A stretch of DNA of 25,919 bases from a virus. Every line of letters begins with the position of its first letter. Position 1 is the first letter of the stretch. The stretch is taken from the IMG/VR virus record IMGVR_UViG_3300025012_000267, positions 1 to 25,919 of that record. The stretch is one strand, 5' to 3'. The position numbers and the translations under genes are program-made. Shown here in pieces: positions 12,602 through 25,303 of this stretch. The notes below the pieces were generated by a model. The model had not been told where the DNA came from. It saw only the letters and a program-made list of their open reading frames with translations, and did no database searches.

Positions 12602-13099
12602 TTATCCCAGCAGATCCGTGCGGAACTGCCGCAGGTCGAACTTCCTGCCCGGACAGCTCTTGTAGGGCGCAAGCTCCCTGTGCCCATAAACCCGCCCGAG
12701 GGTGATGCCGAAGACTTCCATCAACGAACGCACCAGCTTCAATCCCGCGGCCAACTGGGGCACCGGCACCGGCGTTTCGTCGAAGTTGCCTACAAAACAA
12801 ACACCCAGCGCGCGCTGGTTCATGCGCTGCTGGGTGCAGTGGGCGCCCGTTTCGGTCATCATGCGCCCGGTCAAAATCTCGTAGCGTTCACCCACCAGTT
12901 CGATGCCGAAATGGTATCCGATATCGGTCCAGGGCCGCTGCACCGGCATGCCGGCGTCGAGTAGCCCATTGACCTGTGCCGGATCGATCGTGAGCCCTTC
13001 GAGCCGGTATGACGTGTGATAGCGCCGGATGGCATTCCAACTGACGGTCAGCCCGTCAGGCGTAAGACTGTGGTGGATGACGATCGCGTCCGGCCGCAT
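12602..13099 (-). CDS. N-acetylmuramoyl-L-alanine amidase (Amidase_2/PGRP), phage endolysin
   Basis: A 165-residue zinc amidase that cuts the bond between muramic acid and the peptide stem. Zinc ligands fit the T7 lysozyme-like fold: IVIHHSLTPDG near residues 7-17 (His9 or His10), the VYGHRELAPYKSCPGRKFD block near the C-terminus (His and Cys ligands), with IGYHFGIE and ALGVCFVGNFDE between. There is no signal peptide, so it would need the nearby holin. The start at 13097-13099 has AAGGAG at seven bases; an ATG 19 codons upstream lies in the hairpin region and gives a Pro/Ser-rich extension. This is the first gene of the leftward late/lysis series. Confidence 0.9.
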   Translation of the reverse strand: MRPDAIVIHHSLTPDGLTVSWNAIRRYHTSYRLEGLTIDPAQVNGLLDAGMPVQRPWTDIGYHFGIELVGERYEILTGRMMTETGAHCTQQRMNQRALGVCFVGNFDETPVPVPQLAAGLKLVRSLMEVFGITLGRVYGHRELAPYKSCPGRKFDLRQFRTDLLG

Positions 13100-13115
13100 G
13101 GATGCTCCTTTTTTT

Positions 13116-13199
13116 TGAACAGGGGGTGCTGGAGAGGAGGGAGAGGAGACCGGCATCTGAACGGGATGGGTTTCTGCGCCTCTCCAGCACCCCGTTCAG
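13116..13199 (-). promoter_or_regulatory. Leader with alternative hairpins upstream of the lysis amidase
   Basis: A near-perfect inverted repeat pairs 13116-13137 with 13179-13198 (core GGTGCTGGAGAGG and its complement). A 9-base sequence CTGAACGGG at 13157-13165 can instead pair perfectly with 13191-13199. The minus-strand RNA therefore has two exclusive folds just before the amidase ribosome site, which lies in an A-rich stretch at 13100-13116. This could time endolysin translation. The repeats are seen directly; regulation is inferred. Confidence 0.5.
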
Positions 13200-13246
13200 T
13201 TTTCTTCATCCATTAAAGCGGAAAGCAAAACAAGTAGGCGGGAACG

Positions 13247-13280
13247 ATTGTGTGCCAAGGGTTGGCACACAATCTTTTTT
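13247..13280 (+). terminator. Terminator-like hairpin with T tract, plus strand, no gene upstream
   Basis: Perfect 12-base arms (ATTGTGTGCCAA at 13247-13258 and TTGGCACACAAT at 13262-13273) surround GGG, followed by CTTTTTT. That is an intrinsic terminator on the plus strand, yet no plus-strand gene precedes it. It may end a small RNA or antisense transcript. Alternatively the dyad is an operator for the leftward late promoter. Confidence 0.55.
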
Positions 13281-13360
13281 AGGTTGAAAAATGTCTGGTT
13301 GGCTTCGGTAATAAGGTCGTTGCGGACCTAAAAAATTATTTTCCCTGCCTCATTTTTTTC

Positions 13361-13394
13361 TTGACATCATGATTATCATGATGCATATTATAAT
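13361..13394 (+). promoter_or_regulatory. Plus-strand promoter with embedded 19-bp perfect palindrome
   Basis: A consensus -35 TTGACA lies at 13361-13366 and -10 candidates lie at 13386-13394 (TATTAT or TATAAT; spacing 19 or 22, longer than usual). Between them, CATCATGATTATCATGATG at 13365-13383 is a perfect palindrome around one central base. It is well placed as an operator for repression of the two genes at 13426 and 13677. The second of these encodes a ribbon-helix-helix-like protein that may bind it. Confidence 0.62.
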
Positions 13395-13425
13395 CAACAA
13401 ACGGCAACACTAAACGGAGGTCACC

Positions 13426-13629
13426 ATGCAAAAACAACTCATTATCGGCGACGACTACGGAACAATTTTCGGACTCGATCCAAAAAAAGGGCAGCACATC
13501 GTTTACCTGGGCGGTGTAAGATTCCGGCTGGCCCAAGGAGTACGAGAGGCAGAACGCGAATCTCAGGACACCTATGAAAAAATATTGGAGTACATCAACC
13601 AACCGAGCATCCATATGGGCCGCATGTAA
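13426..13629 (+). CDS. Small protein of unknown function, first gene of the plus-strand island
   Basis: A 67-residue protein (start MQKQLIIGDDYGTIFGLDP, then KKGQHIVYLGGVRFRLAQG and a charged helix REAERESQDTYEKILEYIN). The start has GGAGG seven bases upstream and follows a good promoter with a palindromic operator. I do not recognise a family. Beta-rich N-terminus and a helical C-terminus are suggested. It is transcribed against all surrounding phage genes and is paired with a zinc-ribbon/RHH gene 47 bases downstream, a layout seen in regulatory or toxin-antitoxin-like cassettes; that role is only a hypothesis. Confidence 0.72.
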   Translation: MQKQLIIGDDYGTIFGLDPKKGQHIVYLGGVRFRLAQGVREAERESQDTYEKILEYINQPSIHMGRM

Positions 13630-13676
13630 AAAATCTAAGGGGGCTGCGCATCCTACACGCGGAGAAAGATGTTGAT

Positions 13677-13979
13677 ATGCCAACACTTTGCGCAGCGTGT
13701 GGGAATTTGAAAGGCAGCATCGCATTGGGTGGGACACTACTTTGCCGCCAGTGCGAACCGGCGATATCGGCTGAGATAGCCAGCCTTCGGGCGGCAGGTA
13801 AGCCCGTAAACGTGGCGCACATAGCCCATCGGATTTACAAGGAGACAAATAGCGGAGGTAATTACCTGCTTCGGGATATCCCCCAGGAGCTTTGGGACAA
13901 AGCGAAACACCGGGCCGTCGATGACGCCGACTCTCTCCGTGATATAGTTTTAAAAGCCCTTCATGCATACCTAAAATAG
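13677..13979 (+). CDS. Zinc-ribbon plus ribbon-helix-helix-like regulator
   Basis: A 100-residue protein. The N-terminus has two CxxC pairs (C5/C8 and C23/C26) forming a zinc ribbon. The C-terminal 40 residues (GNYLLRDIPQELWDKAKH, then DADSLRDIVLKALHAYLK) fit a ribbon-helix-helix DNA-binding domain: a short beta strand, helix, turn and helix. Such proteins bind short palindromes as dimers, and a perfect 19-bp palindrome lies in the promoter of this two-gene unit, so autoregulation is plausible. The ribosome site GGAG is 12 bases upstream, rather far. A hairpin at 13989-14008 follows the stop. Confidence 0.75.
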   Translation: MPTLCAACGNLKGSIALGGTLLCRQCEPAISAEIASLRAAGKPVNVAHIAHRIYKETNSGGNYLLRDIPQELWDKAKHRAVDDADSLRDIVLKALHAYLK

Positions 13980-13988
13980 CCCCTTCGA

Positions 13989-14008
13989 GGCCCCTCTTTG
14001 GAGGGGCC
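13989..14008. terminator. Hairpin between convergent genes, probable two-way terminator
   Basis: Perfect 8-base arms GGCCCCTC (13989-13996) and GAGGGGCC (14001-14008) flank TTTG, 9 bases after the plus-strand gene at 13677-13979 and 7 bases before the stop of the minus-strand HTH gene. T tracts on either side are weak (CTATCTTTG on plus, CTATTTTAG on minus), so termination may be partial. Confidence 0.55.
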
Positions 14009-14015
14009 GCAACCC

Positions 14016-14231
14016 CTATCTTTGTACACCGTCATTGCCATGATCGAGGCTGACGATACCGTTGACCAGCCGCACCGGCAGTTCCCGTGAAATGGCTTCC
14101 ACATAACGATACACGGACCGTCTCGACAGCCCCGTCTTCTCCTGAATACTGCGCACCGAGACGCGGCCGCCGCAGGCGGATTGCAGCACACATATGATCC
14201 GGGTGGTTTTACTGACGGCGCTGTCGGTCAT
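14016..14231 (-). CDS. Small winged-helix/HTH DNA-binding protein, last gene of the leftward early run
   Basis: A 71-residue protein almost entirely formed by an HTH of the HTH_11/DeoR-like type: TTRIICVLQSACGGRVSVR, then IQEKTGLSRRSVYRYVEAI (recognition helix about residues 34-46), and a short wing (LPVRLVNGIVSLDHG). The start at 14229-14231 has GAGGAGTAATT before it, formed by the end of the preceding frame-split gene. It stands where Mu has its middle/late activators, so it may regulate the late genes, but it is not a Mor/C family member. Confidence 0.75.
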   Translation of the reverse strand: MTDSAVSKTTRIICVLQSACGGRVSVRSIQEKTGLSRRSVYRYVEAISRELPVRLVNGIVSLDHGNDGVQR

Positions 14232-16409: not shown

Positions 16410-16552
16410 CGGCCACCTCCTTGCGAGGGCACGATATCGTCCGTTGCGTCGATCTCCTCGTCGCACCACTTGGCCATCGTCAGCGCGGCGCACAATCCAA
16501 AACCAACGATGACGCCCACCGCCATCCCGAACAGAAAACCTGTCAAAAACAT
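16406..16552 (-). CDS. Small single-pass membrane protein
   Basis: A 48-residue protein, MFLTGFLFGMAVGVIVGFGL followed by CAALTMAKWCDEEIDATDDI and VPSQGGGR. Residues 2-26 are hydrophobic and glycine-rich, typical of one membrane helix; the rest is acidic. The start overlaps the end of the TraR-like gene by 10 bp and the stop overlaps the start of the next membrane protein (ATGA), so translation of all three is linked. The end of this gene also provides the ribosome site of the next. It may be a partner of the larger membrane protein. Function unknown. Confidence 0.7.
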   Translation of the reverse strand: MFLTGFLFGMAVGVIVGFGLCAALTMAKWCDEEIDATDDIVPSQGGGR

Positions 16553-16764
16553 GATCCGCTCCTTTCTTGATGGCTCTTACAGGCCGCGCACAGCCGGCAG
16601 CCTGGAACGGCGGCCAGTCTTTCGGCCGGGATCGTCTCGCCGCAGACATCGCACTCGGTGGCCTGCGGCACGGCTTGCAGCGCCAGGATCTCGGCGCGTT
16701 TGGCGCGGATGTGCATGCTGGTTAAAGTCTCTTCGCTGAGCTGGGCGTATTCGGCGTCATCCAT
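16543..16764 (-). CDS. TraR/DksA-type zinc finger protein
   Basis: A 73-residue protein with the four-cysteine finger CDVCGETIPAERL ... CRLCAAC (C38, C41, C59, C62), the pattern of TraR/DksA family C4 fingers. The N-terminus is a helix with acidic residues (MDDAEYAQLSEETLTSMHI), as in TraR, which binds in the RNA polymerase secondary channel. Short TraR-like proteins are frequent in Mu- and P2-like phages. It overlaps the Gam gene by 8 bp and the small membrane gene by 10 bp. It could tune host transcription; this role comes from the family. Confidence 0.85.
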   Translation of the reverse strand: MDDAEYAQLSEETLTSMHIRAKRAEILALQAVPQATECDVCGETIPAERLAAVPGCRLCAACKSHQERSGSCF

Positions 16765-24769: not shown

Positions 24770-25303
24770 GTGAAAACGATTTGTGACCGAATAAAATCGA
24801 TTCGAGGTGAGCTAACACAGAAGGAATTCGCTAAAAAATTAGGTGTAAGTTTGGGGGCCGTTCAATACTGGGAGGCAAACGAACAGATACCAAAAGGGGA
24901 TATCCTTTTAAAATTCAGAAACCATTTCAATATCGACTTAAACTGGTTACTCACAGGACAGGGTGAGCCCTTTGCTGAACGTGAACGAGATAAAGCCGGT
25001 TATCAAGCTATTCAATCTTCAAACATTATAGAGCTTCAACATTTAGACCTGGTGCGGAATTTCAAAGATAAGCCTCGGGCTAAGGCAATAAACCAGGCCC
25101 TTTTGGAGCTGGAGCGCACCAGTCCCAGCGCCTTCGAAGCCATCGAGGCCTATATTAAGGGGATGGTCAGTGGAATCCAACTAATGGTGGCCGAACCTCA
25201 GTCGTCATATAGTGAGCGTAGAAAAAAGGACGCCCCTGAAAATATTCCTCCAGGAGGTGATCGGCGCCGGGGAACGGATCGGCGCAAGGCGGGCGGTGGA
25301 TAG
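24770..25303 (+). CDS. Lysogeny repressor, Xre-type HTH (Mu c-like role)
   Basis: A 177-residue protein. Residues 1-65 are an Xre-type HTH (ICDRIKSIRGELTQKEFAKK, LGVSLGAVQYWEANEQIPKG, FNIDLNWLLTGQG), as in phage CI-like repressors. A helical middle (IELQHLDLVRNFKDKPRAKA) follows, then the tail PPGGDRRRGTDRRKAGGG. There is no S24 peptidase domain, so induction by self-cleavage is unlikely. It is the only long plus-strand gene facing the lytic operon, with operators before its start. Translation starts at GTG 24770-24772 with no clear ribosome site; the transcript may be leaderless or nearly so. Confidence 0.88.
   Translation: MKTICDRIKSIRGELTQKEFAKKLGVSLGAVQYWEANEQIPKGDILLKFRNHFNIDLNWLLTGQGEPFAERERDKAGYQAIQSSNIIELQHLDLVRNFKDKPRAKAINQALLELERTSPSAFEAIEAYIKGMVSGIQLMVAEPQSSYSERRKKDAPENIPPGGDRRRGTDRRKAGGG

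Follow-up and report, generated by a model that had tools for sequence, protein, structure and literature searches.

The plus-strand island and its setting

What is the small group of genes that is read rightward in the middle of a Mu-like phage whose recognisable neighbours are all read leftward, and what might it do for the phage? The window, that is the whole stretch of 25,919 nucleotides analysed here, is a complete IMG/VR record (IMGVR_UViG_3300025012_000267) of a Mu-like phage, in which Gam, GemA, the MuA transposase, and Ner are encoded leftward. The island is flanked by minus-strand genes for a lysis amidase (12602-13156) and for a small HTH protein (14016-14231). An earlier note on this DNA had described all the surroundings as leftward, which is true of every neighbour of recognised function (amidase, small HTH, Gam, GemA, MuA, and Ner); a cI-like repressor gene at 24770 lies on the plus strand, far from the island. 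The GC content of the island is 49.7% as against 61.5% for the window, and GC3 amounts to 0.54 in both island genes as against 0.75-0.79 in the amidase and MuA genes. Because both values depart from the rest of the phage, the island looks foreign.

Several features of the surrounding phage were recorded as well. The small HTH gene adjoining the island (14016-14231) encodes a 71-aa winged-helix/HTH_11-like protein that is a candidate middle/late regulator of the Mu-like phage. Close to the left edge of the island, positions 13246-13274 hold a strong inverted repeat of 13 bp (GATTGTGTGCCAAGGGTTGGCACACAATC) with T6 after it. It lies upstream of the lysis/late genes, which are read leftward, and represents a terminator or, alternatively, a dyad site of the late promoter. 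Between Gam and a membrane-type protein, the minus strand encodes a 73-aa protein (16543-16764) with a C4 zinc motif (CDVCGE...CAACK) resembling the DksA/TraR finger. Matches to MuA, sought for host assignment, all stayed below 60% identity (24-26% among the matches listed).

The island opens with a sigma-70-type promoter (13361-13394, plus strand), whose TTGACA hexamer (13361-13366) is followed by two options for the -10 box, namely CATATT (13384-13389), 17 nt past TTGACA, and the overlapping TATAAT (13389-13394). Its spacer holds the predicted operator CATCATGATTATCATGATG (13365-13383), a perfect 9-1-9 palindrome with the core ATGATWATCAT. Next comes an ORF with a good ribosome site (GGAGG) for a 67-aa orphan protein (13426-13629, plus strand), here called the cargo, and then the gene for a 100-aa zinc-ribbon/ribbon-helix-helix regulator (13677-13979, plus strand), a predicted autorepressor. 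The unit is closed on the same strand by the hairpin GGCCCCTCTTTGGAGGGGCC (about 13989-14010; about -18 kcal/mol by RNAfold), which has no T-run. The earlier note had listed a TTGACA promoter with a perfect 19-bp palindrome, a 67-residue gene, a second gene, and a hairpin, and each of these was confirmed in its place. The palindrome is the sole one in the window with arms of at least nine bases, and 0.38 such palindromes would be expected from dinucleotide shuffles, so that the palindrome by itself is within chance; its significance is drawn from its conservation at other loci and not from its own rarity.

A regulator built from a zinc ribbon and a ribbon-helix-helix domain

The regulator carries four cysteines (CxxCG...CxxC) and combines a predicted beta-hairpin zinc ribbon with two linker helices and a C-terminal ribbon-helix-helix (RHH) domain. 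Its AF2 model, a monomer with a pLDDT of 86.6, leaves the RHH beta strand and the dimer outside the model. No Pfam family covers the protein, and Foldseek, run with the full-length regulator on PDB and BFVD, gave nothing at E <= 0.001. When the halves were considered separately, structural re-ranking placed the Arc repressor first for residues 60-100 (VIA Z 3.5, rmsd 3.8, 40 residues) and uS14 second for residues 2-40 (Z 3.2), the Z values being modest in both cases. Profile matches were obtained to uS14 type Z for the zinc-ribbon half (E about 0.003) and to the antitoxin RHH 7e4j (E 0.005) and a CopG-type RHH (E 0.016) for the other half; the regulator also matched the Arc-like PHROG 6506 (E 0.001) and a FitA-like Pfam family (E 0.015). 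The C-terminal half, with a predicted beta strand followed by two helices, fits the RHH superfamily. Since the four cysteines are kept in 19 of the 20 regulator loci described below and structural comparison ranks uS14 and the Arc repressor at the top for the respective halves, the description of this protein as a zinc ribbon joined to an RHH-like domain is well supported.

Some relatives deviate from this plan. At L074 (6001-6300), an aspartate takes the place of the third zinc-ribbon cysteine, and the promoter palindrome is likewise degenerated (TTGACATAATGCTGTACC). The regulators of L051 (5992-6723) and L052 (4583-5314) continue at the C-terminus for about another 145 aa and may be fusions of regulator and cargo, as are AcrIF24 and AcrIIA1. 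At L063, the operator found in the window stands ahead of four orphan genes, after which an RHH-only protein of 55 aa (MNYTLRDIPPDLW...) is encoded. Phage G001 has, next to its cassette, another unit built in the same way (L019, 976-1368): a TTGACT promoter whose spacer holds the inverted repeat CTTTGTACGCACAAAG, a gene for an orphan of 74 aa, and a gene for an RHH protein of 56 aa from another family. Cassettes run by RHH proteins may be general.

The promoter-operator travels with the regulator gene

Relatives of the regulator were collected by a protein search that gave three distant relatives first, 21 contigs by profile, and further ones by sub-profiles. After duplicates were merged, 20 independent regulator loci were counted, from which L005 (31% identity, RHH only) was left out as it is not a full-length member. 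All relatives are metagenomic. Single-protein scans found none in bacterial genome contigs, phage genomes, or plasmids, an absence that is weak for the genome scans because these used narrow peptide patterns, and the regulator was not found in cultured-phage and plasmid collections at the sensitivity used. Independently, and with no information passed between the two approaches, the DNA alone was scanned. The 17-base promoter TTGACATCATGATTATC recovered L008 and L014 together with chance matches (L009, L010, and L012), and a looser pattern applied to IMG/VR (TTGACA-N1-4-ATGATNATCAT-N2-12-TATA) returned 22 stretches, several of which, from new phages, have a gene for a zinc-ribbon-RHH protein directly downstream (L008, L022, L027, L031, and L033).

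As the DNA-found loci are biased, the operator test was restricted to the 14 protein-found loci. A TTGACA/ATGATNATCAT score of at least 13/16 was reached within 1 kb upstream of the regulator in eight of these, and in nine when 2 kb were allowed for the longer L045 operon; a score of at least 15/16 was reached in 5/14 (1 kb) and 6/14 (2 kb). Background windows from the same contigs reached 13 in 49 out of 2506 cases (2%) and 15 in none of the 2506, and shuffled upstream regions reached the two thresholds in 28 and 0 out of 1400 cases, respectively. In other phages, the promoter ahead of the regulator gene keeps its register, and the conserved motif runs on past the palindrome as GATATATATTATAATCAA, so the entire promoter is conserved. 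The canonical operator is absent from the remaining five protein-found loci (L040, L041, L048, L057, and L074). The idea of an autoregulated cassette with its own promoter-operator is, as a prediction, well supported, since the promoter-palindrome travels with the regulator gene.

The palindrome could also be read as a Fur box of the host, in which case the cassette would be iron-regulated and the RHH protein would have another target. CATCATGATTATCATGATG indeed shares 15 of its 19 positions with the Fur consensus GATAATGATAATCATTATC, and the agreement ranges from 12 to 17 of 19 across sites, with 17/19 at L044. However, the consensus of the family differs from that of Fur in the outer hexamers, and single sites fit the family consensus better than the Fur consensus (equally well at L044). 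Both palindrome arms are altered together at L050 (TCTTGATTATCAAGA), which keeps the symmetry despite the changed arm. Moreover, the site predicts a downstream zinc-ribbon-RHH gene in several unrelated phages, and L057, whose predicted recognition strand reads GVLQIRDVP instead of GNYLLRDIP, carries a different palindrome (ATACATGTAT) in the same place behind TTGACA. We regard regulation by Fur as improbable and take the palindrome to be the putative operator of the regulator itself.

A code relating the RHH strand to the operator was considered and is not claimed, as only L057 fits it cleanly and L048 and L074 obey no simple rule. In two further contigs (L032, 2688, and L020, 259), the same promoter-operator stands ahead of orphan genes and no regulator was found in the contig; these genes may be controlled in trans or by a regulator that is encoded elsewhere in the phage, outside the contig.

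A mobile frame with interchangeable cargo

Positions 13313-14024 of the window and 1186-1897 of L002 share a gapless block of 712 bp with 98.9% identity (eight differences), in which both proteins are identical, and the identity drops to background within about 20 bp of each edge. Outside the block, L002 is an unrelated phage: by inspection, its terminase is of GpA type and its primase of P4 type, and no Mu genes were seen. The closing hairpin lies inside the transferred block; two of the changes fall at the hairpin, in the loop and outside the stem. The island delimited in the earlier note (13361-13979) is hence real, and the natural unit, given by the block common to both phages and by the contrast in GC, is slightly larger (13313-14024, plus strand).

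Elsewhere, the cargo changes. In the sister phages L053 and L054, the left flank with the promoter is 83% identical and the regulator gene 84% identical at the DNA level, whereas the cargo (100 aa vs 63 aa) does not align and has been swapped. Together with the transfer between the window and L002, this swap means that the cassette travels between phages as a unit, with its cargo exchanged. Its carriers possess terminases of at least four types (PHROG groups 2, 9, 38, and 24361/5989) and portals of groups 156 and 21. At many loci, the cassette is antiparallel to its neighbours and adjoins the terminase or a module boundary. The recurrence of the two island genes as a pair in other phages had been set as a test beforehand, and both do recur in L002; co-occurrence proved to be the wrong test, because elsewhere the regulator keeps its promoter and swaps its partner.

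One to five genes lie between the promoter and the regulator, or none (L044 and L049/L050, as well as L040, where no cargo was called), and the cargo stands before the regulator in most of the 20 loci. By BLASTP, 29 cargo proteins with a median length of 102 aa fall into 28 families, and the sole link among them is a short C-terminal motif common to L041 and L057. Of these proteins, 27 come from the regulator loci and L063, and the other two (L020 and L032) stand behind an operator without a regulator. Those scanned against Pfam, PHROGs, and NCBIfam gave no match worth naming except for a terminase small subunit within the L045 operon, so that not every partner is accessory. No cargo protein matches a known anti-CRISPR or other anti-defence family. 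For the 67-aa protein of the window, searches of Pfam, PHROG, NCBIfam, phage genomes, and IMG/VR retrieved the L002 copy only, and a single-sequence AF2 model (pLDDT 54) is too weak for interpretation. The cargo of L056 and L058 found no match among phage genomes. By eye, the first cargo protein of L056 (197-499, plus strand; YYHASQRDLPIGES...) is like the start of small ADP-ribosyltransferase-type proteins; as no family match was found, this likeness is a lead only.

These partners bear directly on a possibility raised in the earlier note, namely a toxin-antitoxin unit in which the upstream protein would be the toxin and the RHH protein both antitoxin and autorepressor. The small size of the unit, its predicted autoregulation, and the likeness of the C-terminal half to antitoxin RHH domains (the FitA-like Pfam family and 7e4j matched above) would suit such a unit. 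Its hallmark, a constant and co-evolving pair, was not what we found: the regulator is conserved, but its partners belong to 28 unrelated families, and at L040, L044, and L049/L050 it occurs without any partner. As one antitoxin could hardly neutralise 28 unrelated partners, with sometimes none present, this explanation is disfavoured and is in our estimation the most improbable of those considered.

A proposed self-limiting cassette with a probable role in counter-defence

We propose that temperate phages carry the island as an accessory-gene cassette that spreads horizontally and limits itself, and whose cargo probably serves counter-defence. The strong promoter would fire on entry of the phage DNA and transcribe the small cargo genes, one or a few in number, together with the regulator gene behind them, after which a dimer of the regulator would bind the palindrome between the -35 and -10 boxes and shut the promoter off. 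The promoter-operator and the regulator would thus form a constant frame, and the cargo (here the 67-aa protein) the interchangeable part, which would most likely act against a host defence such as CRISPR-Cas, restriction, or another system. This last step is the most speculative one. As no cargo protein matches a known anti-defence family, the role is read from the layout, from how diverse and small the cargo proteins are, and from two neighbours of anti-restriction type: beside the L002 cassette lies a 208-aa gene whose product has a Lar-like match (restriction alleviation; E 7.5e-6), and the L057 cassette adjoins a DNA methyltransferase. Most anti-CRISPRs are likewise orphans.

The earlier note had instead placed expression of the island in lysogeny, and the same cassette and autorepressor could serve a self-regulated moron for lysogenic conversion or superinfection exclusion, in which the prophage would express the cargo at a fixed low level to the benefit of the lysogen. 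The antiparallel orientation to the lytic genes, the closing hairpin, and the foreign composition of the island speak for this alternative, and diverse cargo is equally typical of morons. On the other hand, the cargo proteins are small and mostly soluble-looking orphans, in which by inspection no membrane or secreted features are recognisable, and a strong near-consensus promoter with an operator in its core is better matched by a burst followed by repression, although this is not decisive. An early burst with subsequent self-repression would fit the anatomy at least as well as lysogenic expression does. We consider the moron unlikely, if a good deal less so than regulation by Fur, and retain the counter-defence cassette as the preferred reading.

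Guilt-by-association with aca genes has been a productive route to anti-CRISPR genes. The validated Acas are all HTH proteins, and therefore cassettes under other regulators have been missed. The family described here provides a new bait, consisting of the protein and the 34-bp promoter-operator. It has already led to 28 unrelated families of orphan cargo in uncultivated phages, and every one of these offers a small candidate for a new inhibitor of a bacterial defence system that can be tested directly. It is in our judgement evenly balanced whether zinc ribbon-RHH proteins, along with RHH-only relatives like that of L063, form a new class of Aca-like regulators without an HTH that defines a large unseen set of interchangeable counter-defence genes, for which the promoter-operator would be a sufficient bait.

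Comparison with known systems

A literature search found no paper joining anti-CRISPR, zinc ribbon, and ribbon-helix-helix, and nowhere a description of this regulator family, the parts of which can nevertheless be compared with known proteins. Residues 1-40 resemble the zinc knuckles of uS14/S29 (CxxCG..CxxC with a beta hairpin) at the E value given above, but are fused to an RHH and accompanied by no other ribosomal feature, and a ribosomal function is not implied. Residues 60-100 share the short beta strand and two helices of the Arc/CopG repressors and of the FitA/VapB antitoxins; unlike these, the regulator adds an N-terminal four-Cys zinc ribbon and two linker helices, and has no constant toxin neighbour.

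As a whole, the cassette resembles the anti-defence genes of archaeal viruses that are defined by their regulatory sequence, as in both cases diverse orphans stand under one common promoter/operator motif (PMC11065993). The archaeal genes differ in having archaeal promoter elements and the wHTH regulator Aca8 (PMC11065993).

The closest parallel in layout is with the anti-CRISPR/Aca operons (Aca1-12, AcrIIA1, and AcrIF24). In the operons of Aca1-12, small variable genes come first and the regulator last, with one inverted repeat within the core promoter, and reporters are repressed by the cognate Aca (PMC9410906). Only 15% of the aca-like genes adjoin known acr genes (PMC9410906), and the AcaFinder study reports that acr and aca genes recombine frequently (PMC9765179). 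Aca1-12 are HTH proteins, while Aca13 lacks an HTH and is not validated (PMC9765179). The cassette shares with these operons a strong promoter with an inverted repeat in its core, small orphan cargo that is reshuffled, and a conserved regulator in last position (PMC9410906, PMC9765179). Variable small cargo lies upstream of a conserved, predicted DNA-binding regulator in one transcription unit, and the inverted repeat is present in the core promoter of 9/14 protein-found loci (2 kb). The two differ in that no cargo is a known Acr and in that the regulator is a zinc ribbon-RHH protein, belonging to no described Aca family. For this reason we do not call the cassette an Aca operon, although its regulator is predicted to work alike.
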